DNA of 64,000 nt from Phenylobacterium sp. (lineage in GTDB: Bacteria > Pseudomonadota > Alphaproteobacteria > Caulobacterales > Caulobacteraceae): assembly GCF_016793285.1 (NCBI RefSeq), contig NZ_JAEUMO010000032.1:21249-85248 (forward strand), given 5' to 3'. Each line of letters begins with the position of its first letter. Position 1 is the first letter of the stretch. The position numbers and the translations under genes were made by a program. A model generated the notes under the pieces. It had not been told where the DNA came from. It did not search any database and saw only the letters and a list, made by a program, of their open reading frames with translations. Positions 1,845-20,500 of this stretch are shown here, piece after piece.

Positions 1845-1866
1845 GCGCCTAAGGACGGACACGGAC

Positions 1867-3300: not shown

Positions 3301-3353
3301 GCCTGCGTATCTGAGTTCGGGACAGTGTGCGCGCTGCTTGGGGAGGCGGCTTC

Positions 3354-4187
3354 GTGTTGACGGTAGCGCAGATCACCGATCTGCATGTCACCACCGAGAA
3401 GGATCCGCTTAACCAGAAGCGGAACGAAGATCGTCTGCGCCAGACGATGAAGACGATTCATGCCCTGCGCCCGCGCCCGGTGGCCATCATCGCCAGCGGC
3501 GACCTCGTCGACCGGGGCGAGATCGAGGAATACTACGAACTCAAGCGTCTGATGGATGAGAGCGAGATCCCCATCTACTACGCGCTCGGCAACCACGACG
3601 GCCGCGAGGCCTTCCTGCAGGTGTTCTCGGGCCCCGGCGCCCAGACAGACGAAAATGGCTATGTGCAGTATGCTGTCGATTTCGGCCCATTCCGCATGGT
3701 GGTCATGGACACCCTGGAGGGCCCGAACCACGGCGAGTACGACGAGAAGCGCGCCGCCTGGCTCGCCAGGACGCTCGACGAGGCGCCGGACCAGCCCACC
3801 GCGATCATCCTGCACCATCCGCCCATCCCGAGCGGGATCCGCTGGATGGATCCCGATCCGAAGTCGCCCTGGATCGTGCGCCTCGAAGGCGTGCTGAAGG
3901 GCCGTGACCAGATCCAGGTCATGATGTGCGGCCACATCCACCGGGCGTTCAACGGCCTCTTCGCGGGCCACATGGTCGCCTCGGCGCCCGCGACGTCCAT
4001 CCAGCTCACCCTCGACCTCACCGAGGTCGACATGCATGTGCCCGACGGCCGCGAGATCCTCGTGGAGGAGCCGCCGGGCTTCCAGCTCCTGATGGCGCAC
4101 GAGGGCCACCTGACGACGCATTGCTGCCTCGCCGGCGACTTCACGCCCGCCGTCACCTACAATTTCCCCTTCCGGAAGCTCGCCTGA
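3354..4187 (+). CDS. CpdA-like metallophosphoesterase (cyclic nucleotide phosphodiesterase)
   Basis: Calcineurin-like metallophosphoesterase with the complete metal-binding set in order: TDLH near the N-terminus, SGDLVDRG, GNHD, LHHPP and GHIHR. This order and the length (277 residues) fit class III 3',5'-cAMP phosphodiesterases such as CpdA. An in-frame GTG exists at 3327. I prefer the GTG at 3354 because GGGAGG sits seven bases before it and the protein then opens directly with the first beta strand and TDLH. Three bases after its stop begins a CHASE2 adenylate/guanylate cyclase-type gene, so synthesis and breakdown of a cyclic nucleotide may be encoded together. Substrate is inferred from family and context. 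Confidence 0.85.
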   Translation: MLTVAQITDLHVTTEKDPLNQKRNEDRLRQTMKTIHALRPRPVAIIASGDLVDRGEIEEYYELKRLMDESEIPIYYALGNHDGREAFLQVFSGPGAQTDENGYVQYAVDFGPFRMVVMDTLEGPNHGEYDEKRAAWLARTLDEAPDQPTAIILHHPPIPSGIRWMDPDPKSPWIVRLEGVLKGRDQIQVMMCGHIHRAFNGLFAGHMVASAPATSIQLTLDLTEVDMHVPDGREILVEEPPGFQLLMAHEGHLTTHCCLAGDFTPAVTYNFPFRKLA

Positions 4188-4190
4188 CCC

Positions 4191-6068
4191 ATGCCGGGAA
4201 CGGTCAAGCGCCGCGGTCCGATGGGATGGTTGCTCGCGCGGCTCGATCAGGTGCGCGCGAAGGGCGGCAAGGGCCTGGCCGACGCCGTGGTGCTCCTGGG
4301 GGTCACCGTCGTCGCCGCCGTGGCGGCGCTGCTGCTCAACACCGCGACGCCCATCGTCGTGGTGGAGAACCTCACCTACGACATGCGCATGGCCCTGGGC
4401 GTGCCGCCGGCCCAGCCGAAGACCTTCGCCATCATCAAGGTCGACGACATGGCGCTGGAGGCGATGCGCAACTCGACGCCGTGCCGTTGCCTGTCGCCGA
4501 TCGACAAGCTGTGGCTGGCCGACGTGATGGTCGCGCTCGACAAGAAGGGCGTTAAGGCGATCGGCGTCGACTATCTGCTCGACACCTGGGCCTCGGACGA
4601 GGAGTTCAAGGCCTTCCAGGACCGCATCAAGGACGTGAAGGCGCCGATCGTGGCGGTGGTCGATCCGGCGATGACGCCGGGCGTCGACTTCCCCGTCGAC
4701 CCGAAGATCCACTATTCGGACGCCCGCGCCCTGATCGTGTCGGACTACGACAGCTTCGTGCGCCGCTACGACCCGCGGCCCGGCAAGACGCTGGCCCTGG
4801 CCACCGAGGTCGGCGTCCAGGCCGTGGGGCTGAAGCCGCCGACCAAGCCGTTCAACCTCCGCTACCGCGCGCCGGACCCCAACGTGGAGGGCGAGAACGC
4901 GGGCGCCATCGCACCGTCCTACTCGGCCGCCCTCGTCGACTTCGTGCCGCCCGAGCAGTTGAAGGACCGGATCGTCTTCATCGGCCGCACGACCCGCTCG
5001 GCCAGCGCCGACGCGGACACGCCGGTCGAAGACATGCACATGACGCCGCTCAGGTTCCTGAGCGGCCACTTCCGCGGCACGCCGGGCGTGGAGGTCCACG
5101 TCCACGCCCTCTCGCAGATGATGGCGGGCGACAAGGTGCGTATCCCCGCCGCCGGCTGGACCGCCGTGATCGCCCTGTTCTCAGCCTTCTGCGGCGCGCT
5201 GATCGGGCGGTCCACACAGAGCTGGTGGGTATCGGTCGGCATCGTCCTGCTCGGGATGGGCGCGGGCGCGGTCGGCGCGTGGGCGCTCTACGCGTTCGCC
5301 GCGCTCATGGTCCCGATGACCGCGCCGGCGATTTCCTTCGCGTTCGGCTTCTTCATCCTCTCGCGCCTATCGGCGGCCGAGTTGCAGAACCAACGCGCCT
5401 TCTATTCGTCGACGCTGGAGCGCTATCTCGCCCCGCAGGTCATCGACCGGATGGTGGGCGGCCAGGAGCAGGTGAAGATCGGCGCGGAGGAGCGCGAGAT
5501 CACCGTGATGATCTCCGACCTGGAGAACTTCTCGAACCTCGTCGCCAGCCTGCCGCTCGAGACTTTCGAGGGCGTGATCAACGAGTACTTCGACGGCGTG
5601 ATCGACATCCTCTGGAAGCACGAGGCGATGATCGACAAGATGACCGGCGACGGCATCATCGCGATCTTCGGCGCCCCCGTGCCGTCCGACGACCACGCGG
5701 ACCGCGCCATCGCCTGCTGCCGCGAGATCGACACCTACGCGCTGGCGATCCGCGAGAAGATGATCGAGCGCGGCATCAAGTTCGGCTACACCCGCATGGG
5801 CGTATCGAGCGGCATCGGCCTGGTGGGCAACTTCGGCGGCGAGCGCCGGTTCAACTACACGGCCTACGGCGAGGTGGTGGTGATCGCCGCGCGGCTGGAG
5901 GCGGCCAACAAGACCTTCGGCACGCGCATCCTGTTCTCGGGCGACACCCTGAAGCTCGCCAGGATCAACGTCCCGATCGAGGCGGTCGGCGAGATCGACC
6001 TCAAGGGCGTGCCGGTGCCGATCCCCGCCTACACGACGCCCACGACGGCCGACGTTCCGCGGGCGTAG
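4191..6068 (+). CDS. CHASE2-domain class III nucleotidyl cyclase, atypical active site
   Basis: Membrane protein of 625 residues. Order: one N-terminal transmembrane helix, an extracytoplasmic CHASE2 sensor (about residues 55-320), two or three transmembrane helices (about 325-400), then a cytoplasmic class III cyclase domain (about 430-610). Metal-binding Asp443 and Asp487, the purine-recognising Lys483 and Thr557 (a class IIIb-type pairing for ATP) and the transition-state Arg568 are present. The transition-state Asn expected four residues before that Arg is Val564, so catalysis may be weak or lost. It starts three bases after the CpdA-like gene and is surely in the same operon. An extracellular signal probably acts through CHASE2; the ligand is unknown. 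Confidence 0.88.
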   Translation: MPGTVKRRGPMGWLLARLDQVRAKGGKGLADAVVLLGVTVVAAVAALLLNTATPIVVVENLTYDMRMALGVPPAQPKTFAIIKVDDMALEAMRNSTPCRCLSPIDKLWLADVMVALDKKGVKAIGVDYLLDTWASDEEFKAFQDRIKDVKAPIVAVVDPAMTPGVDFPVDPKIHYSDARALIVSDYDSFVRRYDPRPGKTLALATEVGVQAVGLKPPTKPFNLRYRAPDPNVEGENAGAIAPSYSAALVDFVPPEQLKDRIVFIGRTTRSASADADTPVEDMHMTPLRFLSGHFRGTPGVEVHVHALSQMMAGDKVRIPAAGWTAVIALFSAFCGALIGRSTQSWWVSVGIVLLGMGAGAVGAWALYAFAALMVPMTAPAISFAFGFFILSRLSAAELQNQRAFYSSTLERYLAPQVIDRMVGGQEQVKIGAEEREITVMISDLENFSNLVASLPLETFEGVINEYFDGVIDILWKHEAMIDKMTGDGIIAIFGAPVPSDDHADRAIACCREIDTYALAIREKMIERGIKFGYTRMGVSSGIGLVGNFGGERRFNYTAYGEVVVIAARLEAANKTFGTRILFSGDTLKLARINVPIEAVGEIDLKGVPVPIPAYTTPTTADVPRA

Positions 6069-6206: not shown

Positions 6207-9200
6207 TCAGCGGTCGGCGTTGGCGCGGTTCACGGGGACGCCGAGCCAGGCGGTCATGTCGGGCTCGTCGGTGACGCGGTAGGGGCGGCCCCAGCGGTCG
6301 GTGAAGAAGCGCTCCATCTCGGCCCGGTTGAACGGCCGCGAGCCGAGGCGTCCGAAGATCGCCATCTGCCCGCCGGTCTCGTCCACCGCGCGGTCACGGT
6401 CGAGGCCCTTGGAGAGCGCGAGCGCGGCGCCGTCCGTCTTCGCCCAGGCGATGAGCTCGGGCATCGGCTTCGGCGAGAAACCGTAGAAGTTCGGCTGGCT
6501 GGACGGGCTGGTGAGTTGCAGCACCTTCAGGCCGTTCCGCCCGTCGGCGACGTAGGCGAAGAGCGAGGCGTTCGTGGAGCCCACGACCACGTCCTCGGCG
6601 TCGTTCAACTGGCCGTCGGCATCGAACTTCCGATAGAGGCGCGGCCGTTCCGGGCTGGTCACGTCGACGATGACCAGGCCGTCCTTCTTGGCCGCCACGT
6701 AGGCGTAGGTCCGGGCCACATAGACGCGCCGCGCATCGACCAGCGGGATGGTCGCGCCCTCCACCAGCCGGGGCTGGTCGAGCTTCGTGACGTCCAGCAC
6801 TTCCAAGCCGCGCTGGGTCGTGACCCAGAGGTAGCGGAACTGAAGCGCCGAGGCGCGCACGTCGGGCAGCGGCACGGTCGTCAGGTGGCGCGGCTTCAGG
6901 GGATCGGTCAGGTCGACCACGACCAGGCCCGCATCGGCGGCGATGTAGGCGATGCTGCCGCCCAGCGTGATGTGGCGCGCGCCCTTGAGCACCCCGCCCT
7001 CGTTCCAGGTGACCGCGCGCTTCAGCATGTTGTTGCGCGGATCGCCGTCGGCCAGCGTGTTCACGTTGACGAGGATGAGCCCCTCCTCGGCGTCGGTGAT
7101 CACTGCGTAGGAGTAGATCGGGTGGAACTTCTGCTCCTGGTTGGCCTGGAGCAGCGTGGTGTCCTGGCCGGTGACGGCGTCCTTCACCTTCATCTGCTGC
7201 ATGTGCTCGTTGCGCAGCGGCGCGATGTTCTGGTTCGTCGGCAGCGCCATGCAGGTGGCGTTCTTCGACGCGACCCGCGTGTCATGGCCCAGCGCCGAGA
7301 ACGGCGCGGTGATGATCGGCTGCGAGACGCTCTTGTTGGCGATCGAGGCCACGTCGTAGGCGCGGAAGCCGCCCTTCCCTTCGGCGACGAACATGTACTC
7401 GCCGCGCAACTGGAGGCAGCGGGCCGCGCCGCCGGACTTGTGGCTGACCTTGCGGATCCACTCGGCCGACTCTTCTTCCTGGTGGCCCGTCACGCCGTTG
7501 GGGAACGGGCCGCCGCGGACGCGGTCCCTGATCTCGCGGCCGTTCTTCTCGACATGGTCCTTGTAGTAGTCGGGATAGGCGTACTTCTGGAGGTACGACC
7601 CGAAGACGGCCTGCGGCTCGCTCCACTCGCTGACCCGGACCGCCTCGATGGCGCCATCCAGGCCCACCCAGGCGTTCTGGCCGACGAAGTTCACGTAGTT
7701 GGTCCCGAGCAGCAGCAACTGGGCCATGATGGCGTTGTTGTCGTTCGCCGCCGAGACGTGGCAGTCCGAGCAGGTCTTGGTCTCGGTCTTGCGCACCGTA
7801 TGCGGGAAGTGCGGCGCAAACGCCTGGCTGGAGTAGCCGGAGGCGGCGATCGGCGGCTGCTGGGTGTAGATCCGCTCGCGGTTGACGTTCGTCGACGACA
7901 GGACGAGCGCCGACGAGGAGCGGACCGGGGCGATGGTGTTGCCCTTCACGGTCGAGTGGACGCCCAACTGGTACATGTCGTCGCGCGCAACCTGCGGGTT
8001 GTAGGTCGCATAGTTGCGGGTCTCGATGCCCTCGAACTTGTGGGTCGTCGTCTTCCAGTTGGCCTCGATGGGCAGGTGGCAGCCCGCGCACGCCGTCGTC
8101 CACGACGAGTGGCAGGCGAAGCACTCCATTTCCTCGTCCTTGTGGGCGCGGTCTCCGGCGGCGACGCCGGGGCCCCAGGCGAACGGGCGCCCGTCCTGGC
8201 TGATGCGGCTCATCAGCTTGGCGCGGGCCGACCTGGCGTTGAAGTCGGGGCTGGTGCGGTCGACCGAGTCCTTGGTCAGGTGTATGCGCCACTCGAGCTT
8301 GGGATCCAGCAGCGACCGCTGGACCAGCACGCGGCGGCCGTCCTGCTCGACCCACTCGAAGCGGCGCTGGCCGTCGGGGTTGCGCAGCAGGCTCAGGTCG
8401 TTGCCCTTCACGTCGGCCGCCGGGCCCGAGGTGCGCAGCGTCGGATAGGCGTCGGCGGTGCCGTGGCAGTCCTTGCAGCGGATTTCGACCGAGTTGGCGA
8501 CCTCGCCCATGATGAGGCCCGAGCCATGGCTGTCCTGGGCGAAGTGGCAGTCGGCGCACTGCATGCCCTTCTCGGCGTGGATGTCCATCATGTGGACGGC
8601 CTTGCCCGGCTGCTTGCCCACCTCGGGGAACTGGGGCTCGCCCTTCCGGCGCCACTTCTCGGGGTCGTCGTTGGCGACGATCTTGCCTTCGGCGTCCAGC
8701 AGGTTGCCTTCGCGGTCGCGCTTGAAGATGCCGCGGAAGTTCCAGCCGTGGCCGTGGTAGTCGGCGAACTGGGTGTCCTTCAGCTTGGCGTTCAGGTCGA
8801 AGACGTTGCGCAGGAAGTCGAGGTCGGCCCACAGCCCGCGGGGCGCGGCGCCCTCGGGGTTGCGGTCGAGGACGTGGCGGATCTCCTCGGACGTCGGGTA
8901 CTTCTGCCGCTCGGGCCACATGAAGGGCGCGTCGGACTCGTAGTCCCACATCGTGTAGCCGAGGTAGGTGTTCATGAACATGTTCGGCTGGTGCATGTGG
9001 CAATTCATGCACTGGGCCGTCGGGATCGCGCGCGTGAAGTAGTGCTTGATCGGGTGGCCCGACTGGTCCTTCGGGATCGTCGGGTCGACCTGGGCCGAGG
9101 CGCCGTCGCGGCCGTACTTCGCCCAGGTGAGGCTGGCCTGCTGCTGGCGGTTGTTCGCATAGACCACATGGCAGGACGCGCAGCCCGACGAGCGGTAGTC

Positions 9201-10184
9201 GCCCGGCTGGTCGTTGGTGCCCAGGAACCAGGTGAAGGGGTCGTTCAGGCGGGTCTTGTGGATGTTCAGCAGCGGGATCGCGACCCGCAGGCCGGTGCCC
9301 GGGCCACGGTTCGACTGCTTCAGGTCGGGCCGGCCCGGCTCCTCGAGGCGCTGCAGCGCGCCGTTGGCGTTGGGCAGGCCCACTTCGGCGAACTGGGTGT
9401 TGATGTTGCGGCCGCCGCGCTCGAACACGCGGAAGATGTCGCCGGGCGGCGTCACATGCCAGGTCGGCGGCGGATAGAGCGCGCCGACCGCCCCGCGCTT
9501 GGCCTGTTCGGGCGTCACCGCGCCGGGCGGATTGCCGGGCGACAGGAGCTTCGCCGGCTCGCCGTGGGCCGTGTAGGCCTCCCCGAGGACGTAGTTCTTG
9601 AAGGGCAGGATGCCGTTGTTGTACGAGGCGCCGCCGAAGAACATGGCGCCCGTCGCCATCAGCGAGCGCTCGGCCCTCTCGATCAGCTCCATGTGGCAGG
9701 CGCCGCAGGCCAGGCGGGCCACGCGGTAGTCCGACGGGTTCACGAAGCGGACGTACTCGGGGCTCTCCTTGTTGAGCAGGGTGAAGCTGTGCTTCGGATT
9801 GGCCGAACTGGGCCAGTTCCACGTCTTCGGGTACTTCGGCAGCACATGGCTCTTGTCGCGCAGGCGAACGTACTCGGGCGAGGTCATCGCCAGGCCCGCC
9901 GGCGCGATGACGTTCGGATCGCCGCCGTGGCAGGACGCGCACCCCAGCCGGACCGCCTCGGAGACGTGCATCGACTTGGCGTCGCTGTCGGTGTGGCACG
10001 ACACGCAGCCCTTGCTGGCGGCGTCCACCTCGGCGTCGGACATCCCGAGCTTGGCCGGCGCGGCCATGACATAGCTGCGCTTGACCGGCTTTTCCGCCTC
10101 GCTGGCCTTGAGCGAGATGGGCGCGAGCACGGTCAGCGCCGCCAGCGCTCCCAGTCTCAGCCATTTCCGCCCGAATTTCAGCAT
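6207..10184 (-). CDS. Exported decahaem c-type cytochrome fused to LVIVD repeats
   Basis: A 1325-residue exported protein. The Sec signal peptide starts at the ATG at 10184 (MLKFGRKW then a hydrophobic stretch ending near SLKASEA); upstream codons are open but not protein-like. Ten CXXCH haem c motifs follow: CVSCH at residue 60, then CASCH, CGACH, CASCH, CMNCH, CADCH, CKDCH, CFACH, CAGCH and CSDCH. Numerous other His residues could be distal ligands. The C-terminal third carries at least four LVIVD-type beta repeats, for example LVVVDLTDPLKPR and LVIVDVTSPERPR, expected to form a propeller. There is no lipobox, so it is periplasmic or secreted across the outer membrane. It is the last gene of a leftward operon, 7 bp after a predicted outer-membrane barrel. 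An electron-transfer role is inferred. Confidence 0.88.
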   Translation of the reverse strand: MLKFGRKWLRLGALAALTVLAPISLKASEAEKPVKRSYVMAAPAKLGMSDAEVDAASKGCVSCHTDSDAKSMHVSEAVRLGCASCHGGDPNVIAPAGLAMTSPEYVRLRDKSHVLPKYPKTWNWPSSANPKHSFTLLNKESPEYVRFVNPSDYRVARLACGACHMELIERAERSLMATGAMFFGGASYNNGILPFKNYVLGEAYTAHGEPAKLLSPGNPPGAVTPEQAKRGAVGALYPPPTWHVTPPGDIFRVFERGGRNINTQFAEVGLPNANGALQRLEEPGRPDLKQSNRGPGTGLRVAIPLLNIHKTRLNDPFTWFLGTNDQPGDYRSSGCASCHVVYANNRQQQASLTWAKYGRDGASAQVDPTIPKDQSGHPIKHYFTRAIPTAQCMNCHMHQPNMFMNTYLGYTMWDYESDAPFMWPERQKYPTSEEIRHVLDRNPEGAAPRGLWADLDFLRNVFDLNAKLKDTQFADYHGHGWNFRGIFKRDREGNLLDAEGKIVANDDPEKWRRKGEPQFPEVGKQPGKAVHMMDIHAEKGMQCADCHFAQDSHGSGLIMGEVANSVEIRCKDCHGTADAYPTLRTSGPAADVKGNDLSLLRNPDGQRRFEWVEQDGRRVLVQRSLLDPKLEWRIHLTKDSVDRTSPDFNARSARAKLMSRISQDGRPFAWGPGVAAGDRAHKDEEMECFACHSSWTTACAGCHLPIEANWKTTTHKFEGIETRNYATYNPQVARDDMYQLGVHSTVKGNTIAPVRSSSALVLSSTNVNRERIYTQQPPIAASGYSSQAFAPHFPHTVRKTETKTCSDCHVSAANDNNAIMAQLLLLGTNYVNFVGQNAWVGLDGAIEAVRVSEWSEPQAVFGSYLQKYAYPDYYKDHVEKNGREIRDRVRGGPFPNGVTGHQEEESAEWIRKVSHKSGGAARCLQLRGEYMFVAEGKGGFRAYDVASIANKSVSQPIITAPFSALGHDTRVASKNATCMALPTNQNIAPLRNEHMQQMKVKDAVTGQDTTLLQANQEQKFHPIYSYAVITDAEEGLILVNVNTLADGDPRNNMLKRAVTWNEGGVLKGARHITLGGSIAYIAADAGLVVVDLTDPLKPRHLTTVPLPDVRASALQFRYLWVTTQRGLEVLDVTKLDQPRLVEGATIPLVDARRVYVARTYAYVAAKKDGLVIVDVTSPERPRLYRKFDADGQLNDAEDVVVGSTNASLFAYVADGRNGLKVLQLTSPSSQPNFYGFSPKPMPELIAWAKTDGAALALSKGLDRDRAVDETGGQMAIFGRLGSRPFNRAEMERFFTDRWGRPYRVTDEPDMTAWLGVPVNRANADR

Positions 10185-10191
10185 CTTGCCC

Positions 10192-12195
10192 CTAGAAGGT
10201 GAGAATGGCGTTGAGCAACACGGAGTAGTACTGGTCGTGCCGGCCGCGGTTGGCGAACAGGTCCTTGAAGCCCGCGCCCGCATCGAACACCGCACCCGAG
10301 GCCCGGAACACGATGTTCTGGGTCATGTGCGGACGCCAGATCGCGGCGACCGAGGCGTCCCAGCCCAGCGACTTCGGGATCGAGCCCTCCTGGCGCAGGT
10401 TCTCCAGGATCGTCGTGTCCACGAAGCCCAGGTGGTTCACGTTGACCGAAAGCCGCAGTTCGGGCGTCACGTCGAAGTCGGCGCCGCCGCCGACGAGCGT
10501 GGTGCCGGGATTATTGAAGTTGGACTGGCCCTCTTCCTTCGACGGCCGCAGCGAGTTCAGGACCCCGTTGCGCGCGTTGATCCCGATCACGCGGCCGCCG
10601 CCGGCGAACGGGATGGTCTGGCGGATCCAGTAGCTGGTGTCCGAGCCGGCGAACTGCGGGTTCTCGAAGATCGAGTCGAAGCCGCGCTCGGTGTTGTCGT
10701 AAGGGTTCTTGTCGCCCGAGGCGTAGAGCAGCGAGCCCCGGACCCGGATCCAGTCGAAGTCGACCGACGGCTCGGCGGCCAGGAAGTAGCTGCGGATCTT
10801 CGCCTTGCGGTCGGTGAAGATCGAATTGCGGTCCTCGCCGAGGGCGTAATAGGCCGAAGCCGTCAGGTTGTAGCGGCCCCAGTGGCCGTCGGCGTTGTAG
10901 CCCAGGTAGACGACGTCGTAGTCGCGGCCGCGAAGGGTCCCGATGAGCGCCGGGCGCTGCGGGAAGCCGTTCTTGTCGACGTAGATCTCGTTGCCTTCGC
11001 GGTTGCGGTTGTAGGCCACCGTCACCTGCGAGGTGAGCCCGGGCACGGGAAGGTCCTGCCGATACAGGTTGCCGATGAAGACCCAGTCGTCGCGGATGCG
11101 CTGGGTCACGTCGTTCAGGCCCGAGTTCGTGTCCTTCTCCAGGCGCCAGAAGGCCGCGAGGTTGTACTGGAACCGGTTGTTGTCGCGGTTGCCGAACAGG
11201 CGGACGCCGAGCTGGTTGTCCTGGAACAGGAAGCCCCGGAACTCCGAGGAGAACGGTTGGATGCCGACGCGGACGCTGTCGAAGTCGTAGCGGTCGGAGA
11301 CGTTGCGCAGGTGGTAGTCGAGGAACAGTTCCTGGACGCCGATGAACGCGTCGCTGCGGTGCGACTTCTTGCTGGGCTCGACGAAGAGCACCCGGCGCTC
11401 GGGCACGTCGACGTAGTTGTACTGGCCGGCCAGCACGACGCGCAGTTCGTACTCGGGCGGCTTGAAGGCGGTCGACCCCTTGATGAGCGAGGCGCCGGCG
11501 ATGAAGGTCTGCGCCACCACCAGGCTGCTCGAACGGCCGAAGACGTCCAGGCTGCCCGGACGCGCCGTCGTCTGCACGCCGACCGGGATCGGGAAGGTGC
11601 GCGGCTCGACCACGGTGTCGGAGATTCCCGTCAGCGCCAGGAACAGGTCCTCGACGCCCTTGATCGGGATGTCGCCCTTCCAGAAGTTCTGGTTGTAGGG
11701 ATCGTACCAGCGGGGCTTGGAGACGCCCAGGGCGCCGGCCAGGCGCCAGCGGTCCGGAATCGGCGCCTCGTCGTGAGGGAAGGCTTCCGGCGGCGGGGCG
11801 CGCACGGCCCCGGGGTTGGTCTGCTGGATCTCCGGCTCGTAGGTCTCGATCCGGCCGGGCGGCCGGCGTCCTTCGAGCGGCGCCGCGTCCGTGGGGGCCG
11901 GCTCGGAGTCCGGCGGCGGCGCGGTGGCCTCAGCCTCGGCCGGCGGCTGGGCGGCGGGGGGCGCCTGCTCCTGGGCCGAAGCATCGACGGCGGCCAGCAT
12001 GGCCGCGGCGGGCGCACCGGCCACGCCGCAGTCGGCCAGGATGTCGTCGATGCTGCGGTCCGCCCCGCGCGACGGCGAGCCCTGGGCGTCGCCGTTCAGG
12101 ATGCCGTCGATCGTCAGCCCGCCGCCCGTCGACGCCCTGGCCTGGCCGGCCAGGGCGGCAAGGGCGACGAACGCGAGGAGCGAGGCTTTGCGCAT
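10192..12195 (-). CDS. Large outer-membrane beta-barrel protein
   Basis: A 667-residue protein with a clear signal peptide (MRKASLLAFVALAALAGQARA). A Pro/Ala-rich, probably disordered periplasmic segment covers about residues 65-130. Then comes a long stretch of alternating hydrophobic/aromatic strands with Asp/Asn-rich turns, ending in Phe, the outer-membrane assembly signal. I do not recognise a named porin family. Placed between a haem-binding lipoprotein and a decahaem cytochrome, it could be the barrel of a porin-cytochrome conduit (MtrB-like by role, not by visible homology). The start is ATG at 12195, 3 bp after the stop of the upstream gene, so it is tightly co-translated. The function is inferred from topology and context. 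Confidence 0.8.
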   Translation of the reverse strand: MRKASLLAFVALAALAGQARASTGGGLTIDGILNGDAQGSPSRGADRSIDDILADCGVAGAPAAAMLAAVDASAQEQAPPAAQPPAEAEATAPPPDSEPAPTDAAPLEGRRPPGRIETYEPEIQQTNPGAVRAPPPEAFPHDEAPIPDRWRLAGALGVSKPRWYDPYNQNFWKGDIPIKGVEDLFLALTGISDTVVEPRTFPIPVGVQTTARPGSLDVFGRSSSLVVAQTFIAGASLIKGSTAFKPPEYELRVVLAGQYNYVDVPERRVLFVEPSKKSHRSDAFIGVQELFLDYHLRNVSDRYDFDSVRVGIQPFSSEFRGFLFQDNQLGVRLFGNRDNNRFQYNLAAFWRLEKDTNSGLNDVTQRIRDDWVFIGNLYRQDLPVPGLTSQVTVAYNRNREGNEIYVDKNGFPQRPALIGTLRGRDYDVVYLGYNADGHWGRYNLTASAYYALGEDRNSIFTDRKAKIRSYFLAAEPSVDFDWIRVRGSLLYASGDKNPYDNTERGFDSIFENPQFAGSDTSYWIRQTIPFAGGGRVIGINARNGVLNSLRPSKEEGQSNFNNPGTTLVGGGADFDVTPELRLSVNVNHLGFVDTTILENLRQEGSIPKSLGWDASVAAIWRPHMTQNIVFRASGAVFDAGAGFKDLFANRGRHDQYYSVLLNAILTF

Positions 12196-12198
12196 GCC

Positions 12199-14169
12199 CT
12201 ATTTCCCCTGGCACACGTTCTGTTCGTTCGAGTCCAGGAAAGGCGCGAACGGACAGCCGACGTAGCGCAGGCGCGTCTGAGTAGGTCCGACCAGCAGGGT
12301 GTCGGCGCGAATCGCTACCGGAGCGTTACCGATCGCGCCGCCCAGGCGGGCGCCGGCGTTGTGCGCGCCCAGGAACGAGATCATGTCGTCCTGGTCGATG
12401 CCGTCGCCAGACACGCCGATCGCGCCCACGAGGCGCGCGCCGCGGTAGACCGGCACCGAGCCCGAGAAGATCTGCAGGCCGTTCTGCAGCGGGTTCTGCC
12501 CGGTGGCGACGTCGGGCAGCGACGTGCAGCGGGCGGGCGTGTCCGTCGCCGAGGCGCCGCCCACGAAGCCCAGGTGCTGGCCCAGGTTGCCGAACACGAG
12601 CGCCGACTGCAGCCCGGTGGACAGCGGACTCCACAGATTGATCGGGCGCGAAAGCGGGCCGTTCGCGCGTCCCACCTCGCCGTCCGGGAAGTAGGGGCGC
12701 GACATGTTGCCGATCGCCTTGGCCGCGAAGGCGGTGCGGCCGGTCAGGGCGGTGGCGTCGCCGAGGAAGTCCCGCGTCTTCTGCACGAAGCCCCGGACGT
12801 CGGCGCTGGGGTCGCCCGCCAGTTCCGCCGCGGCGCGCTGGCCCGACAGCAGGGCCACGGTCCGCGCCTTCTGCGCCGAGACGTCGATGCCGAAGACCGG
12901 CGCGTCGGGCGCCCGCACGATGCCCAGGATCTGGCCGCGGCTGTCCACGACGGTGATCGAGACCTCGGCGCGGCTGTCGAGCGGACGCCGGATCTGGCCG
13001 CGGGCGCGGCTCATGACCGTGAAGGCTTCCTCCAGCAGCGCCCGCACCTCGGCCGCGCTCAGCGGCGTCAGGCCGTCGGCGGCGTCTGTGCCGCCGCGGA
13101 TCGGGAAGCGGTTGTTGCCCGCCCCGTCGGACAGGACCATGGCGCCGGCGATCGCGAAGTCCGCCGTGGTGGCCAGCCGCAGGCCGGACGCCTCGGTCCC
13201 GTAGGCCTGGCCCGCGAGCGCGCCGCCGCCGGCGTAGTAGCCGTTCACCGGCGTGAACCCGCCCGCCGCCGCGCCGAGCGTCGAGAAGGCCGGCGCACTG
13301 GTCGGCGTGGTCCGTAGCGTGCCCGTCGAGGCGTCGGAATAGCGGAGCGCCGTTCCGTCGACCGTGATCCGGTCGGCGCGCTGGTCGGTCGGGGCGTCGA
13401 AGCCCACCGTGGCGGCGTAGGCGATGTTCTCCTCGTCGTCGGCGTCGACGTCGAGGATGTTCTTGTCGAAGCCGTAGTCGTTGTCGCCCACGATGCCGAC
13501 GCCGCCGACCAGCGTGCCGTTCTTGTAGAGCGGGAAGCCGCCGGGATCGGCCGAGAGGCCCAGCGGCGTGCGCCGCGGCCCCACCGCGACGTTCGCCGTC
13601 CGGGTGGTCACGTCCGAGCAGGGCAGCGACGAGAACTGCACGCCGAAGAGCGGGCCGCCTTCCAGACCCACGGTCGACGGCGCCGGCGGGAAGTGTTCCT
13701 GCACGATCTGGCTGGCCGTGCGGGTCGAGAACGAGTTGCCCCCGGACGACGACAGGTAGGCCCCGGTCACCGCCTTGGCGATCGCCGCGGCAGCCGCGGG
13801 CACAGTCAGGCCCTGGGCGTCGGTGCTGACCCCCGCGGGGCCCGCCCGGGTGACGGTCGTGGCCCGCGCGCCGGTCATCGAATAGACGGCCAGCACGTTG
13901 CCGACGCGGTCGGTCACCGCGATCACCACCGGCAGGTTGCGCGCGCGCGCCTCGGCCACCGCCTGGGCGATCACCTGCTGGACGTCGGCCGTCGTCAGCG
14001 CCACGGCGGCCGGGAGCGTGAAGACGCCCGCGGGCGTCGGTCCGGGCGTGCCGGGCGTCGTCGGCGCGGTGGGCGTTCCACCGCCGTTTCCGCCCCCTCC
14101 TCCGCCGCCGCCGCAGGACGCGAGCGCCAAAGCGGCCAATGACACGGCCCAGCGCATTGTCGATCTCAT
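12199..14169 (-). CDS. Lipoprotein with two GlcG/HbpS-type haem-binding domains
   Basis: A 656-residue lipoprotein whose lipobox LALASC is followed by a Gly run and a Thr/Pro-rich linker. Two regions resemble the GlcG/HbpS (haem-degrading, DUF336) fold. The first opens at about residue 55 with TTADVQQVIAQAVAEA and VIAVTDRVGNVLAVYSM. The second, in the C-terminal half, has LSAAEVRALLEEAF and ITVVDSRGQILGIVR. The family binds haem or acts as a small-ligand sensor. The ATG at 14169 overlaps the upstream cytochrome stop as ATGA, showing translational coupling. Its place between cytochrome genes suggests haem delivery, haem scavenging or a structural role on the outer membrane. The longer upstream reading frame is antisense noise inside the cytochrome gene. 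Confidence 0.82.
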   Translation of the reverse strand: MRSTMRWAVSLAALALASCGGGGGGGGNGGGTPTAPTTPGTPGPTPAGVFTLPAAVALTTADVQQVIAQAVAEARARNLPVVIAVTDRVGNVLAVYSMTGARATTVTRAGPAGVSTDAQGLTVPAAAAAIAKAVTGAYLSSSGGNSFSTRTASQIVQEHFPPAPSTVGLEGGPLFGVQFSSLPCSDVTTRTANVAVGPRRTPLGLSADPGGFPLYKNGTLVGGVGIVGDNDYGFDKNILDVDADDEENIAYAATVGFDAPTDQRADRITVDGTALRYSDASTGTLRTTPTSAPAFSTLGAAAGGFTPVNGYYAGGGALAGQAYGTEASGLRLATTADFAIAGAMVLSDGAGNNRFPIRGGTDAADGLTPLSAAEVRALLEEAFTVMSRARGQIRRPLDSRAEVSITVVDSRGQILGIVRAPDAPVFGIDVSAQKARTVALLSGQRAAAELAGDPSADVRGFVQKTRDFLGDATALTGRTAFAAKAIGNMSRPYFPDGEVGRANGPLSRPINLWSPLSTGLQSALVFGNLGQHLGFVGGASATDTPARCTSLPDVATGQNPLQNGLQIFSGSVPVYRGARLVGAIGVSGDGIDQDDMISFLGAHNAGARLGGAIGNAPVAIRADTLLVGPTQTRLRYVGCPFAPFLDSNEQNVCQGK

Positions 14170-15548
14170 CTGAGCGACCTCGCCGCCTGGGCGACCTGGG
14201 TCAGCGCGCTCCGGAAGGCGTCCGGGCTGTACCGGTTGGGATCGCGCACCTGCGCGTAGGCCCGATCGAGCTGCGGACGCACGCGGGCCGCCACGCCGCG
14301 GTCGACCTGGCCGGACGCCACGAGGGCGTTCAGCAGCGTATCGGCCGCCATGACCGCCTGCGCGCTGCCCGAGTAGTCGGTGTAGCGGCGCGAAAGCTCC
14401 GTCGACAGGACGGTGTCGAGCATCGCCAGCGTGTCGGCGCGCGAGAACCCGCGGGCGGCGAACGCATCGGCCAGCGCGCGGGCGGTGCCGGCCAGCCTCA
14501 GGGCGGCGCGCTGCGATTCGCCACGGTCGCGGGCCATCGCCGCGTGGAAGGCGCGCGAGTCGGCCTCGAGCCGCTGGGCCAGCGCCGGCGAGGCCACCCG
14601 GGCCGCCGCCTGCAGCATGATCATGTTCTCGTCGTTGAACGGCGGCTGGCCCGAGGGGATCGGACGGCCGGGGTTCGCCTCCCACTTCGGCCGCGCCTTC
14701 GGATCGTCCGAGATCTCGCGGTGGCAGCTATGGCAGTCGAAGAAATAGAGTTCGGGGAAGGCCCCGCCGCCACGGCCGCCCTCGCCGTAGAGCGAGAGCG
14801 AGCGATCCAGCGCCATGGCCTGGCCGACCGCCCAGGTCTTCACGCCGCCCGCGTAGCCCTTGCGCTTCACGTAGTCGGCGTCGACATCCCAGTGGTTGAT
14901 CATGCTCGAGAACAGATCGAGCTCGAAGGCGACGCGCGGGTGGCCAGCAGCCATCATCTGGTGGGTCACGAACTGGCCCGAGCGCGAGCTGCCGAAGTGG
15001 CAGTCCAGGCAGACGCCGGCGCGCACCTTCGGGTTCTCCAGGGGCCGCAGGCCGTTGGCGACGTTCGCCGCGTGAGTGCCGCCGACCGCGCGGTGGCTGG
15101 CCAGCCAGCCCGAGGCGCCGCCGTGGCAGGCTTCGCAACCGACCCCGTCGCTGAGCTGGAACTTGCCGCCGCGCATGGGGCCCGGATCGGCGTGGCAGCC
15201 CAGGCATTCCTTGGCGGTCTGCGCGGGGCCGATGCCCATCTTGCGCGTGATCGCCTGCGCGCGGGGTTCGGTCAGCACCCGCCAGGCGCGGCTGTGGGCG
15301 CCGGCGGCGCTGGAGGCGCTCTGCCAGGTGATCAGTTCGTTCTGGCGGACGTTCACGCCCGAATCGACCTGGCGGCTGTGACAACTGGAGCCCGCGCACG
15401 AGGCGACCCCCTCATGCACGCCCTTCACAGGCGCGGATTCGGTCGCGGCCGTGGCGGACGGACCGCTCACGACGACGAACGCGCCGACGACGGCGGCTGC
15501 GGCGACGCAAAGCGCGCCCACAACTCGCGACGCTCGTGCTCCCCCCAT
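14166..15548 (-). CDS. Periplasmic multihaem c-type cytochrome
   Basis: A 460-residue exported cytochrome of the cytochrome c554-like multihaem type. The N-terminal hydrophobic segment (VVGALCVAAAAVVGAFVVV) is a signal peptide or anchor. Four canonical haem sites are seen: CLGCH, CEACH, CLDCH and CHSCH. A fifth, CAGSSCH near residue 52, has four residues between the cysteines (CX4CH). The ATG at 15548 has GGGAGGG just upstream, a strong ribosome-binding site that fixes the start. It is the first gene of the leftward unit, overlapping the next gene by four bases. It may be the periplasmic electron donor or acceptor for the outer-membrane components encoded after it. Confidence 0.87.
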   Translation of the reverse strand: MGGARASRVVGALCVAAAAVVGAFVVVSGPSATAATESAPVKGVHEGVASCAGSSCHSRQVDSGVNVRQNELITWQSASSAAGAHSRAWRVLTEPRAQAITRKMGIGPAQTAKECLGCHADPGPMRGGKFQLSDGVGCEACHGGASGWLASHRAVGGTHAANVANGLRPLENPKVRAGVCLDCHFGSSRSGQFVTHQMMAAGHPRVAFELDLFSSMINHWDVDADYVKRKGYAGGVKTWAVGQAMALDRSLSLYGEGGRGGGAFPELYFFDCHSCHREISDDPKARPKWEANPGRPIPSGQPPFNDENMIMLQAAARVASPALAQRLEADSRAFHAAMARDRGESQRAALRLAGTARALADAFAARGFSRADTLAMLDTVLSTELSRRYTDYSGSAQAVMAADTLLNALVASGQVDRGVAARVRPQLDRAYAQVRDPNRYSPDAFRSALTQVAQAARSLR

Positions 15549-15773
15549 CGTCCCTCCCCCGGGCGCGCACAACTGACCGCCGAGTCTTAGCGGTCTCGGC
15601 TCAGCTTCGGTAGCCCGAATACGCGACAATGGGACCAAATCCGTGGGCCGGCGCCTAGCCTCCGAACGCGCGACTCCCCCCCTTTTCGAGGGTTCGCGTG
15701 CCAAGAGTCTCCGCTTAACAACGTGTTCGACGAACTGTAAGACGGACTGGTGTCGGGTGCTTGGGGGTATGGC
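15549..15773. promoter_or_regulatory. Shared divergent intergenic region
   Basis: A 225-bp region from which the cytochrome unit (leftward) and the two-partner secretion unit (rightward) diverge. It must hold both promoters, but I cannot assign confident -35/-10 boxes. A TTAAC half-site lies near 15716. The divergence suggests joint control of the two units. Confidence 0.4.
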
Positions 15774-17516
15774 ATGGAGGGGCTTCGCCATCGGGCGCTG
15801 CGTATGGGCCGCAAGGCCCGCTGGTGTCTGCTCGCCCTGGCGACCACGGCGCTCTCGCCGACCGGCCTGACATGGGCCCAGCCCGCGCCGCAGGCGGCCG
15901 TCCCCGGCACCAGCGCCGCGGAAGTGAACCCGTCCAGCCGCATCACCCGTCCGCCGCCCCGCCGTTCCAGCGGCGCGTTCACGCCTGAGCCGCCCGGCCC
16001 CTGCCCGCTCGAGAGCTCCGACGTGCAGGTCACGCTGAACGCGGTGACGTTCCAGGGCGCGACGGCGGTGAGCCCGGACGACCTGCGCGCGGCCTACGCC
16101 GACGTCCTGGGCAAGCCGCAGCCCGTCTCCGTGATCTGCCAGATCCGCGACCGCGCGGCGCGCATCGTGTTCGACTCCGGCGTCCTGGCCCGGGTGGAGA
16201 TCCCGGAACAGCGCATCGCCGGCGGCTCGCTGGTGCTCGAGGTGATCGAGGCACACGTCGTCAACGTCCGCGTCCGCGGCGACGTGGGCCCGGCCCAGGC
16301 CGCCGTCGAGCGCTATGCCGAGAAGCTGCGCGGCATGAAGCCGTTCGACATGGCCAGGGCCCAGCGCTACCTGCTGCTGGCGTCCGACGTCCCGGGCATC
16401 CGCGCCCGCGCGGCCGTGCGGCCCTCCACCAGCGCCGAGCGCGGCGCGGTCGACATCGACATCACGGTGGCCAAAGAAGGCCCCGACGTCTTCGCCAACG
16501 TGCAGAACACCGGCTCGAAGCAGGTGGGCCGCTGGGGCGGCCTCGTGCGCGGGGAGTTCTCGGGGTACACCGAGTACGGGGAGTCCACCGCGCTCACCGC
16601 CTTCCACACCCTGGACTCCAACGAGCAGTGGCTGGTGCAGATCGCCGAGACCGCCCGCTTCGGCGGCGAGGGCCTGGTCGGCCGCGGGTCGTTCACCTAC
16701 GGGGAGAGCCGCCCCGGCGACTTCCTCAAGCCGCTGGACCTGAAGAGCAGGTCGGTGGTCGGCAACCTCGAGGCCGCCTACCCGGTCATCCGCTCGCGCA
16801 GCCAGAACCTGAACGTCGCCGGCGGCTTCGACCTGATCGACCAGAAGACCCGCCCCTCTGGCGCGGCGCTGCTCAGCCACGACAAGCTGCGCATCGTCTA
16901 CGCGCGCATGGACGGCGACTACCGCACCGAGATCGCAGGGCGGCCCGTGCTGACCAGCGGCGCGTTCAGCGTGCGCAAGGGACTCGACGTCTTCGGCGCC
17001 AGCGACGCGGGCGACCTGTTGCTGACCCGCGGGCTCGGCAAGCCCGAGGCCTGGGTGGTGCGCGCCCAGGGCGGCAGCGACATCGCGCTCACCGACCGCC
17101 TCACCGGCCAGGTGCGCATGCAGGCGCAGTACGCCGGCAGCACGCTGATGCCCTACGAGCAGATCTCGCTGGGCGGCCTCACGGTCGGCCGCGGCTACGA
17201 CCCGGCGGCGCTGCTGGGCGACAAGGGGATCTCCGCCGCGGCCGAGGTGCGCTACGGCCCCGTGCAGTTGCATCCCAAGATAGCGGCGGCGCCGTATGCT
17301 TTCTTCGACGCCGGCTGGGTCTCCAACAACAACGCCGCGGTGTCCGGGGTGCAGAAGGACAGAAGCCTGAAGTCGATCGGCGCGGGGGTCGTGTTCCGGC
17401 TGTTCAGCCGCGCCAACCTGGAAGTCACCTACGCCCATCCACTCGACGCCACCCGGACGGGGGGTTCGCGTCCTAGCGACCGTGTGCTGATCCAGCTCAC
17501 GGCGAGCCTGCTATGA
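15774..17516 (+). CDS. Two-partner secretion transporter (ShlB/FhaC/HecB family)
   Basis: Outer-membrane TpsB transporter. The signal peptide is long, with a basic n-region (MEGLRHRALRMGRKARW) and a cut near LTWAQP. A Pro-rich linker follows, then POTRA-type domains (about residues 75-240, including VTFQGATAVSPDDLRAAY). The C-terminal 16-strand-type barrel carries the conserved GGLTVGRGYDPAALLGDKG segment (the VRGY motif region) and ends in a hydrophobic residue. Start candidates are GTG 15750, ATG 15774 and ATG 15804. I chose 15774 because GGGGG lies six bases upstream and the signal peptide is complete. It is followed after 16 bp by its likely cargo exoprotein. It recognises the TPS domain in the periplasm and moves the exoprotein to the surface. 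Confidence 0.9.
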   Translation: MEGLRHRALRMGRKARWCLLALATTALSPTGLTWAQPAPQAAVPGTSAAEVNPSSRITRPPPRRSSGAFTPEPPGPCPLESSDVQVTLNAVTFQGATAVSPDDLRAAYADVLGKPQPVSVICQIRDRAARIVFDSGVLARVEIPEQRIAGGSLVLEVIEAHVVNVRVRGDVGPAQAAVERYAEKLRGMKPFDMARAQRYLLLASDVPGIRARAAVRPSTSAERGAVDIDITVAKEGPDVFANVQNTGSKQVGRWGGLVRGEFSGYTEYGESTALTAFHTLDSNEQWLVQIAETARFGGEGLVGRGSFTYGESRPGDFLKPLDLKSRSVVGNLEAAYPVIRSRSQNLNVAGGFDLIDQKTRPSGAALLSHDKLRIVYARMDGDYRTEIAGRPVLTSGAFSVRKGLDVFGASDAGDLLLTRGLGKPEAWVVRAQGGSDIALTDRLTGQVRMQAQYAGSTLMPYEQISLGGLTVGRGYDPAALLGDKGISAAAEVRYGPVQLHPKIAAAPYAFFDAGWVSNNNAAVSGVQKDRSLKSIGAGVVFRLFSRANLEVTYAHPLDATRTGGSRPSDRVLIQLTASLL

Positions 17517-17532
17517 TGCGGAAAGAGTAAGC

Positions 17533-20500
17533 ATGCCGACGTTCATCATGACGCCCGAGGCCCGCCGCCGGCTCTTGTACGCGCGGACGGCGCTGTGCGG
17601 GGCGCTGGCCGGCTTCCATGCGTTCACGCCCGCCACCTCGTTCGCGCTTCCCGTGGGCGGCATCCCCGAGGTCAACGCCGGCGGCGGCAATCCGACGATC
17701 ACGACCTCGACCGACCGGACGGATGTCCGGCTGAACGCGCCGCGCACCGTCCTGTCGTGGACGACCTTCAACGTCGGCCCCGAAGAGACCGTCAGCTTCC
17801 AGTTCAACGACAAGAGCTGGATCGTCTTGAACAAGGTCACCGGCCTCACGCCGTCGAAGATCGAAGGCGTGGTCGAAGGCAAGGTCGGCTCGGCCTACGG
17901 CGGCAACGTCTGGTTCTCGTCGCAGAACAGCATCATCTTCGGCAAGGGCTCGCAGGTCGACGCGGGCAGCCTGTTCGTCGCCATCGGCACCCCCAACACC
18001 GCCGACTTCCTGAACCCCGCCAACACCCTCTTCTCGTTCAACGGCAGCGACGCGCTGCCGAACTCGCGGATCATGGTGCTGTCCAACGCCACGGTGACGG
18101 CGCACGGCGGCATGGTCGCCATGATGGGGCCGACCATCCAGACCCGGGCCAACGCCCTGGTCAGCGCCACCAGCGGCAGCGTCCTCTACGGCTCGGCCAA
18201 GAACTTCCAGATCCGCCTCGCGCCCGGCGCGGGCGGCGACTTCGATCTGGTCGACTTCATCGTCCCCAACGCCAGCGACGGCGCCGAAAGCCAGGTGGCG
18301 ATCGACCTGGGCGGCGACACGCGCGGCGACACCGTCTTCCTGGCGGCGGTCTCGAAGTCGGCGATCGGCAGCGCGGTCATCAACCTCGAAGGCATGGTCA
18401 CGGCCCAGGCGGCGAAGGCCGACGGCGGCGACATCGTGCTGTCGGGCGGCGCAGGCATCGCCAACCGCACGGCCGGCCCCTCGCTGGACGGCGCGGCGAC
18501 CACCGACATCTACCTGAACAAGGCCGTGGCCTCCCGCGACCTGCAGATCCGCAACGTGGGCCGCATCTTCGGCCGCCCGTGGGTCCGCCCCCTCGAGGAG
18601 ACCCGGGACCCGCCGACCATCGCGGACGACAACACCCCGCCCGAGTGCGACGACCACTACTGCGACAACGGCGGCGGCAATGGAAACGGCAACGGAAACG
18701 GGAACGGGAACGGGAACGGCAACGGAAACGGGAATGGCAACGGGAACGGGATGTTCCCGAACATCGTCGAGTCCGTCGTCCTCGACCGCGCGCTGGTCTC
18801 GGCGCTGTTCGACCCGACTGCGATCGCGGCGATCAACGTCGGCCGAGACGCCCGGATCCAGGCCACCGCGTCGATCGAGCTCGGCCGCATCGTGGCCGCA
18901 CGCGACGTCACGGTCACCGGTCCGCAGATCAAGGCCAACAGCCTCATCGCCAGCGGCAACCTGACCGCGACCTCCACCCAGGGCGACGTGCTGCTCGCGG
19001 GCGTCGGCGTCATGCGCGAAGGCGTGATCAGCGGGCGGCAGGACGTGAAGATCGACGCCATCTCGGCGCCGACCAGGCTCACCGTCACCTCGGGCCGCGA
19101 CATCACCATCGGCGACGGCGTCTCATCCGTCGCCGGCGTGATCAACCTGTCGGCGCCGCAGAACGTCTCGCTCGATCTCGCCGACGCCAAGGTCGACACC
19201 ATCACCGCCGGCGGCAGCGTGAACCTCCGGGGCGGCGCGATCGAGGCCAACACGGTCACCGCGCCGCGCGTGTTCGGGATGGCGCAGAGCCTGAAGCTGG
19301 GCACGGTCACCTCCACCGGCGACCTCTACGTCGTCGCCACCAGCGGTGATGCGATCGTCGGCAAGGCGACCGCCGGCGACGACATCTACGTCATCGCCAA
19401 TCACGGGACCGCCTCGCTCGGCGACGCGACCCTCACCGGCGGCGCGCCGGACGCAGTGCAGATCGAGTTCGTCGGCAGCCCCGACGCGGCGGGCAACGGC
19501 CGCGTCGTCCGGGTCGAATCGATCGACCTCGACGCCAGGCTGGGCCTGGGCACGGGCGGCGTCACCGGCGCGACGCGGGTCGATGTGCGGGCCGGCCGCG
19601 ACGCCATCGTCGACGTGCTGCGCGAGACGCCTGGCGCGGTCTCGGTGATCGCCTCGCGCGACGCGACGCTCAAGGCGCCGACCGTCCGCCTCGACAACGT
19701 CTCGGCCGGCCGCGACCTGACGGTCGGCTCGACCACCGGCGACTTCACCCTCGCCAACTCGCTCACGGCGACGCGGAACATCACGATCACCGCGGCGGGC
19801 GCGCTGCGCGTGACCGACGTGCGGGCCGACTCCGGCTCGGTGTCCCTGGTCGGCGGCACGGTCACGGCCGGCGCGGTCAGCGCCAGCGAGGACCTGACGC
19901 TGCGGGCCACCAGCGCCAACGGCTCGGTCACGACCACCAGCTACCGCACGGGCCGCGACCTGATCATCCAGGGCACGACGCTCAGCCTCGGCTCCGCGAT
20001 CGGGCCGGTTACGCGCGATCTTTCCATCACGTCGCTCGGAAACTTCACGTCCGCCACAGCGCTCAGCGCCGGCCGGGACCTGACCATCGACGTGGCGGGC
20101 ACGGCCCGGGTCGCGGCGCTGACCGCCGCCGGAACGCTGCGCATCGCCGCCGGGGACCTGGACCTCACCGGTCCGGCTACCGCGGCCAACGCCCAGATCG
20201 AGTCCAAGACCGGGGCGCTGCGGGTCGGCGGCGCGGCCGGAGGCTCGGGCGCGCTGATCCTCGACAACACCGAGTTCGGCCAGCTCCGCGTGGCGGGCAA
20301 CCTGCGCCTGTTCGCCGGCTCCCCGACGGGCGGCACGCGCGGCGATCTCTTCCTGCAGACACTGTCGATCAATCCGGCGAACACGCCGAACGTCGCGTTC
20401 CTCGTGGGCTCCAACAACAACGCCCAGGTCACGGGCATCGTCGCGCCGAGCGCCAGCGGCGGGATCCTCCGGATCGGCGACGCGACCGACCTCTCCTGGC

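Follow-up and report, generated by a model that had tools for sequence, protein, structure and literature searches.

A Phenylobacterium operon of multihaem cytochromes and a predicted barrel: candidate outer-membrane part of an electron-export line fed by NAD(P)H

The described systems closest to the one treated here are PCC3 and PCC4, two putative electron conduits put forward in the genome comparison of He et al. 2017 (PMC5566968). In the passages of that paper that describe them, the inner-membrane proteins of both bear a signature of two WX3HX13H motifs plus SGxxG, for which two b haems are suggested; PCC4 is drawn with electrons passing from a donor outside the cell into the quinone pool, the carriers of PCC3 include a Mn(II)-oxidising Erythrobacter, and MtrB is given 28 transmembrane regions. 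A later paper (PMC13264449), in the part that touches on the matter, names PCC4 as a conduit with a single citation and compares the clusters of other bacteria with it, and no experiment on PCC4 was found in the titles and abstract openings of the open PubMed Central papers listed for it. In Geobacter, as excerpts of PMC5877670 have it, the porin-like ExtI is found among cytochromes and its loss impairs the reduction of selenite and tellurite, not that of Fe(III) citrate. Here we study four genes in a stretch of 64,000 nucleotides from Phenylobacterium sp. (contig NZ_JAEUMO010000032.1, positions 21,249 to 85,248; "the window" below means this whole stretch), which a preliminary description, made from the sequence alone, had proposed as an undescribed outer-membrane electron conduit. 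Our analysis leans, with modest confidence, towards the view that these four genes form the outer-membrane part of a line that spans both membranes and exports electrons from NAD(P)H.

On the minus strand the four genes are packed as tightly as had been claimed, with a 4-base overlap between genes 1 and 2, 3 bases between genes 2 and 3 and 7 bases between genes 3 and 4. Gene 1 (15548-14166, 460 residues) encodes an exported pentahaem cytochrome c with four CxxCH motifs and one CX4CH, which falls into the Pfam family Cytochrome_C554 and matches cytochrome c-554 (1bvb) among the sequences of the PDB at E 9e-6. Gene 2 (14169-12199, 656 residues) encodes a two-domain HbpS/GlcG-like lipoprotein, in which the HbpS-like family PF03928 is matched in three stretches (E 2e-23, 83.3 bits against a cut-off of 25). 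The product of gene 3 (12195-10192, 667 residues) is a predicted 18-stranded outer-membrane barrel with AlgE as its best fold match, for which neither a Pfam family up to E 0.1 nor an NCBIfam family was found. Gene 4 (10184-6207, 1325 residues) encodes a decahaem cytochrome c that combines Cytochrome_C7/c3 domains with C-terminal LVIVD repeats (Pfam, E 7e-17) and carries its ten CxxCH motifs at residues 60, 82, 160, 335, 392, 543, 570, 688, 699 and 805; against the PDB it gave only weak matches as a single sequence (E 0.23 or worse) and none as a profile at E<=1. Long open reading frames (ORFs) also lie on the plus strand opposite the four genes, and we took them for shadows of the high GC content, since the families and the relatives belong to the minus-strand proteins. 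Thus the positions, the spacing and, by Pfam, the families of the preliminary description were confirmed and its list of parts stands, although it left out the minus strand, the LVIVD repeats and an inner-membrane half that lies beyond the window.

The gene order is conserved elsewhere; by the preliminary description, a lack of such conservation would have spoken against the conduit. A scan of named genome contigs with gene 4 matched 527 stretches, 514 of which encode relatives, and the best 80 loci were used; they come mostly from Phenylobacterium, from further Caulobacterales and from Sphingomonadales, with a few remaining members of the Alphaproteobacteria, and the closest named relative of gene 4 among them, from Phenylobacterium sp. 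ACE_PRO15, is 96% identical. By tblastn, 67 of these 80 loci have genes 1 to 4 all present, in order and on the same strand. Eleven of the other 13 are cut by a contig end, one (L064) has about 0.6 kb before its gene-3 match, which is too little, and one (L098) has genes 3 and 4 without genes 1 and 2 beside them. The proteins extracted as ORFs from the loci (78 for gene 4, 71 for gene 3, 66 for gene 1 and 64 for gene 2) keep the distinctive features of each part: exactly ten CxxCH motifs in 78/78 gene-4 relatives, the 4+1 haem motifs in 66/66 gene-1 relatives, a last residue F or Y in 71/71 gene-3 relatives, and a lipobox in 63/64 gene-2 relatives, the exception reading X (masked) at that place. 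In an alignment of 34 gene-4 rows the ten haem-binding histidines are invariant and 17 further histidines up to residue 910 show a conservation of 90% or more, so that each haem could have a second ligand. In a sample of 149 genomes of the family, gene 4 is present in 17, the genome of the window included. The four-gene set is far beyond chance.

About 8 kb from the operon, 1.7 kb beyond the left edge of the window, lies an inner-membrane module of three genes, given here in the numbering of the contig, where the window begins at position 21249. It consists of an FAD/NAD(P)-cNMP-4Fe4S oxidoreductase (contig 14312-16801; cNMP, cyclic nucleotide), a b-haem-type membrane protein (contig 16803-17684) and a decahaem cytochrome with an FHA domain and a transmembrane segment (contig 17689-19539; FHA and multihaem domains by Pfam), and relatives of CcmF, CcmH and CcmI adjoin it. 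The first protein joins a pyridine-nucleotide oxidoreductase domain, two cNMP-binding stretches and several 4Fe-4S domains (Pfam), among which PF13247 is matched at E 1.7e-10, and its gene stands directly upstream of that of the membrane protein. The latter has no Pfam family at E 0.001. Each of the 52 membrane proteins that were compared has two WX3HX13H motifs, and 50 of these have SGxxG as well, the protein of our genome being one with both. That protein therefore bears the published signature of the putative PCC3/PCC4 conduits, and the word "undescribed" cannot be kept as the preliminary description had used it. Clustering of the neighbours also brought out, at many loci, a metallophosphoesterase, a multihaem cytochrome, a small membrane protein and a large FAD-cNMP-4Fe4S protein, and the neighbourhoods of some loci contain cytochrome c maturation genes.

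The barrel and the inner-membrane module go together at the level of whole genomes. In samples with one genome per species, searched within Pseudomonadota, a profile of the barrel matched 12 of 398 genomes at the level of the phylum (two of which do not belong to the class) and 29 of 385 genomes of the class, 38 distinct genomes altogether, with matches above 600 bits save for pieces of split genes and no grey zone. A profile of the membrane protein scored above 300 bits in 37 of the 385 class genomes (hereafter strong genomes) and below 70 bits in 18 more (weak genomes), and 29/29 class genomes with the barrel are among the 37 strong ones, with a Fisher p of 1e-36 that ignores kinship. As for the named loci, 61 of 79 have at least 8.5 kb downstream; 43 of these 61 show part of the inner module nearby and 36 all of it, and in the 18 without nearby inner-module genes the membrane protein is found elsewhere in the genome (18/18). 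We also looked at stretches from 12 of the 38 barrel genomes, chosen by ourselves, mostly distant and two of them outside the class. There the genes run on one strand from the FAD protein through the membrane protein and the FHA cytochrome to genes 2-3-4. Genes 2-3-4 are present in 11 of the 12, the contig of G299 ending after gene 3, and the three inner genes likewise in 11, with the FAD gene running off the stretch in G611 and G645; the stretch of G514 holds the FHA cytochrome and, up to its end, part of the membrane protein, with relatives of gene 1 and of glutamate dehydrogenase between the modules. Gene 1 lies inside the stretch in six of the 12. The barrel and gene 4 are the parts most strongly conserved in these distant relatives: identity to the proteins of our genome is about 50-65% for the barrel, 56-69% for gene 4, 45-51% for the FAD protein and 24-32% for the FHA cytochrome. 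Because far genomes keep both modules in one cluster, the wider separation in the lineage of the window is probably a rearrangement of a cluster contiguous elsewhere. Thirteen plasmid records carry the barrel, all from Sphingobium or Sphingopyxis; one of these plasmids, the large pMSHV of Sphingobium herbicidovorans (NZ_CP020539.1, L138), typed as conjugative, has genes annotated like both modules together.

The outer module is exchanged on this inner module. Among the 37 strong genomes, 27 have only our barrel, seven only a porin of the PCC4 type, two have both and one has neither. The last is G558, whose contig breaks inside gene 2; the two with both are G675 and G542, the latter fragmented and with 7% contamination. 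In G675 a single membrane-protein match goes with both outer modules, each with its own relative of gene 1 (L186 versus L126/L127). We read the loci of all eight barrel-less strong genomes and of nine of the 18 weak ones. Three of the former (G588, G876 and G628) combine, in one stretch, the inner module and a gene-1 relative with a 5-haem protein of 604-641 residues and a protein of 533-538 residues whose last residue is F. In G639 the membrane protein is accompanied by an FHA-type protein with 10 haems, a 5-haem protein and a porin-like protein of 526 residues, with a 4-haem protein in the place of gene 1 and no match to the FAD protein in the stretch, and G734 offers a fragment of 4.8 kb with a 4-haem protein. 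Four of the weak-match loci (L179, L181, L182 and L184) have cytochromes of 4, 5 and 10 haems per stretch, L178 and L180 have those of 4 and 10, L183 has those of 10 and 5, and L185 is a short contig; porin-like proteins of 457-459 residues occur at L182 and L184, a cNMP-4Fe4S protein at L178 and an FAD/NAD/2Fe-2S reductase at L182. The ninth, L177 (G748), has a 21-haem protein and cytochrome c maturation genes beside its weak membrane-protein relative, which recalls PCC3.

The barrel-less loci fit the description of PCC4 as far as it is given in the relevant passages of PMC5566968, PCC4-like loci being recognised by this description and not by the paper's own sequences. Two sets of PCC4-like porins are homologous to each other (hhalign probability 99.9%, E 2.6e-32), and no homology to them was found for our barrel (0.1% and 0.2%, with sets of 4 and 2 rows), nor for gene 4 to the 5-haem proteins of the PCC4-like loci (9%, 8 rows); the sets are so small that a very remote kinship would still be compatible with these values. 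A profile of the PCC4-like porins matched 32 of the 385 class genomes, namely nine of the 37 strong ones, 14 of the 18 weak ones and nine without a membrane-protein match, and in G675, G765 and G580 the porin set and the inner module are on different contigs. On a tree of 52 membrane proteins (from 32 of the 37 strong genomes, nine weak ones and 11 named loci), the seven porin-only genomes imply five state changes, at least three of them forced by well supported branches, a count that is rough because the tree is a quick one with open forks and long rows. With shuffled labels the mean was 6.7 changes, and five or fewer occurred in 23 of 500 shufflings; a single clade of porin-only genomes was rejected with a p-AU of 1.4e-7, in a test whose groups came from the searches and which was made after a first FastTree had been inspected. 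Since the porin-only genomes scatter on the membrane-protein tree, it is probable that one kind of inner module was combined repeatedly with either of two unrelated outer modules.

For the barrel we predicted a structure from 49 aligned rows, with a mean pLDDT of 64 and 18 long strands. A Foldseek search with this model gave chains of AlgE first (E 3e-16, about 12% identity), and no match named MtrB stood among the best 50 of its 265 matches (E<=0.001). AlgE is itself an 18-stranded barrel. Against the sequences of the PDB the barrel had no match as a single sequence, and none as a profile up to E 5. When the more hydrophobic side of each strand is taken as outward, the inward residues are more conserved than the outward ones (0.82 versus 0.69, p 4e-6; 15 of 18 strands), and a segment at residues 493-564 reaches 0.85, values for which there is no control barrel. 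Membership of gene 3 in MtrB_PioB was considered and rejected for want of a Pfam match up to E 0.1, and that family, PF11854, was not found in our own genome either (0/1), in a search that had no positive control. The remark of the preliminary description that no obvious MtrABC-type sequence is present thus holds for the barrel, for which no MtrB/PioB match was found, and so does a predicted outer-membrane barrel as such, although with about 18 strands in the model it looks like AlgE and would be less wide than MtrB.

The gene set, its motifs and domains, their conservation, the co-occurrence across genomes and the exchange of outer ends are direct observations, and on them we build the following route. 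Cytoplasmic NAD(P)H, the presumed donor, would give up its electrons to the FAD-cNMP-4Fe4S protein, and the electrons would cross the inner membrane by two putative b haems of the membrane protein and pass to the FHA cytochrome, a 10-haem protein apparently anchored in the inner membrane. The pentahaem protein of gene 1 could then carry them through the periplasm to the module in the outer membrane, where the decahaem protein of gene 4 may dock on or in the barrel of gene 3 and the lipoprotein of gene 2 may serve as an accessory at the membrane, and finally an acceptor at the cell surface or beyond it would take them up. Moreover, cyclic-nucleotide control of the line is suggested by the cNMP-binding domain and by neighbouring genes for a CHASE2-cyclase and a phosphoesterase.

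The co-occurrence, the exchange of the outer module and the place of the barrel beside a decahaem protein speak for an outer-membrane terminus. What stands of the conduit originally proposed is a conserved unit with an inner-membrane module for electron entry, whereas an MtrAB-style sheath round a decahaem wire, that is, a wire of the MtrABC type in a very wide barrel, is doubtful because the barrel model shows about 18 strands. The evidence for an outer-membrane terminus fits equally a wire through the barrel and a porin feeding a periplasmic reductase. Several points weigh against the export reading. The barrel model, AlgE-like, has about 18 strands at a pLDDT of 64, against 28 transmembrane regions in MtrB; the barrel loops, at a conservation of 0.79, come near the lumen side at 0.82, with no control barrel for comparison; the model of gene-4 residues 28-905 (40-row alignment) failed with a pLDDT of 37 and was left unused; and gene 4 of the window has no lipobox-like cysteine near its start, so that its product may sit in the periplasm, in the barrel or at the surface. 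Many of the hosts, besides, are known aerobes, for which extracellular respiration is no obvious need. A bolder version of the export reading, which we put forward tentatively and rate somewhat below even, is that of a widespread NAD(P)H-powered export line, gated by cyclic nucleotides and the FHA (phosphopeptide-binding) cytochrome, with interchangeable non-homologous outer heads; the head in the window, made up of the HbpS lipoprotein, the 18-stranded barrel and the decahaem-LVIVD protein, would then represent a separate class of conduit, which occurs in bacteria that are not known to respire metals and has traded places with the PCC4-type head on several occasions.

Other explanations use the same parts. 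The barrel may admit a soluble substrate (e.g. an oxyanion, a humic compound or a quinone), which gene 4 would reduce in the periplasm with electrons from the same inner module, so that no electrons would cross the outer membrane; we regard this as rather unlikely while giving it real weight. An AlgE-like barrel of 18 strands has the width of an ordinary porin, ExtI of Geobacter offers a precedent as described in excerpts of PMC5877670, and gene 4 is weakly ExtM-like; yet that match, at 79.9 bits, is far under the cut-off of 800 and judged to be driven largely by the CxxCH motifs, and the conserved lumen side and the 493-564 segment (0.85, again with no control barrel) would suit a fixed protein partner better. 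The line might also run inward, with the surface module oxidising a donor outside the cell, for example Fe(II) or Mn(II), and passing the electrons inwards, as the drawing of PCC4 from an external donor to the quinone pool and the Mn(II)-oxidising Erythrobacter among PCC3 carriers would have it (both from the relevant passages of PMC5566968). This we judge clearly improbable: a cytoplasmic FAD/NAD(P) oxidoreductase with 4Fe-4S domains would be more natural as an entry for NAD(P)H. Least of all do we expect the cytochromes and the HbpS lipoprotein to serve periplasmic handling of haem or peroxide, the barrel being unrelated or a haem-uptake porin. Pfam does describe the HbpS-like family as haem-degrading; nevertheless the barrel strictly co-occurs with the inner-membrane protein (29/29), another porin is present in seven of the eight barrel-less strong genomes, and a 5-haem cytochrome adjoins it in the six whose porin locus was read whole.

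Several neighbours of the operon deserve mention. On the plus strand, convergent with gene 4, lie a protein with CHASE2 and adenylate/guanylate cyclase domains (4191..6068) and a calcineurin-like metallophosphoesterase (3327..4187), with tblastn matches in 29 and 56 of 79 loci, respectively. Both occur in 27 of the 79 loci, and the two (3327-6068) are possibly a pair making and breaking a cyclic nucleotide. Divergent from gene 1, also on the plus strand, lie a ShlB/FhaC-type two-partner secretion transporter (15750..17516) and a two-partner secretion exoprotein with a TPS domain and no CxxCH (17533..21360), both assigned by Pfam, followed by a CHAT-domain protein (together 15750-24515). These secretion genes were considered as part of the core and rejected, as they were found upstream of gene 1 in only 14 of 57 testable loci (tblastn, of poor sensitivity). 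On pMSHV, genes for Crp/Fnr, CHAT, CHASE2, a hypothetical protein, ShlB/FhaC and a large hypothetical protein precede genes 1-4, all in one direction. At 195-3300 of the window there are an acetolactate-synthase-type enzyme and an aldehyde dehydrogenase, with tblastn matches in 30 and 29 of 79 loci on either side of the operon, some of which may be paralogues, as both families are large. Another candidate was a small exported protein of about 140-180 residues, encoded between the FHA cytochrome and gene 2 at five loci of far genomes (L130, L131, L132, L134 and L137), with a G-aromatic-W-x-x-W core in four of the five. It is not counted in the system as a fifth core part, because five queries gave 0 matches in the window, L102, L138 and the 80 named loci. 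Farther off, at 37608-39926, the window encodes a protein of 772 residues with a C-terminal 2OG-Fe(II) oxygenase domain, and a shorter 2OG oxygenase occurs near the Sphingobium locus.

If the export reading is true, many Sphingomonadales and Caulobacterales, and some Pseudomonadota besides, encode a complete candidate path for electrons from NAD(P)H in the cytoplasm to the surface of the cell, so that common bacteria of soil and water could wire electrons from the inside to the surface. To our knowledge, these groups are seldom considered electroactive. A barrel of ordinary porin width would then be central to the question how electrons can cross the outer membrane, and the pairing of one inner module with different outer ones would be a natural experiment on what the outer end decides, be it the substrate or the mode of crossing.

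As to the known systems, no description of this gene set was found in the titles and abstract openings of the open PubMed Central papers listed by the searches, supplements lying outside that coverage, and a term search of the accessible text of PMC6344600, PMC11475568 and PMC4245776 gave no match for the alphaproteobacterial names asked for. With AlgE the barrel shares the fold alone, as the top Foldseek match of its model; it differs in sequence (about 12% identity, no Pfam match) and in sitting in a cytochrome operon. The Geobacter cluster extHIJKLMNOPQS resembles the present one in that, by the excerpts of PMC5877670, a porin-like protein is clustered with multihaem and b-type cytochromes, and gene 4 is weakly similar to ExtM, ExtN and ExtO (NCBIfam). 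Gene 4 as ExtM was rejected, however, at 79.9 bits against the NCBIfam cut-off of 800; the cut-offs of ExtN and ExtO were not approached either, the comparison covering these three Ext proteins, and gene 4 has 10 haems while ExtM has 12. MtrCAB, PioAB and MtoAB are alike by role, having a barrel and a decahaem protein tied to an inner-membrane source of electrons; they differ in the 28 transmembrane regions given for MtrB, against about 18 strands in the barrel model here, and in their entry module, which would be of the quinol type, whereas ours appears to be of the NAD(P)H type. The likeness to PCC4, by the passages describing it, is greatest at the inner end: an inner-membrane protein with two WX3HX13H motifs and SGxxG (the comparison covering these motifs and not the five transmembrane helices of PCC4), a PF13247-type Fe-S redox protein upstream of it as in subgroup II, and several multihaem cytochromes with a barrel. 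In the same passages the cytochromes of PCC4 have 4, 5 and 10 haems, those here 5 (4+1), 10 and 10; FAD/NAD(P), cNMP and 4Fe-4S parts are fused in one protein here; an HbpS lipoprotein and LVIVD repeats are not mentioned in that text; and by hhalign the barrel and the gene-4 decahaem protein of the window show no detectable homology to the PCC4-like porins and 5-haem proteins. Because its membrane protein bears the PCC3/PCC4 signature, we class the system, by its inner end, as a variant of the PCC4 kind, whereas by its outer end it is not PCC4.

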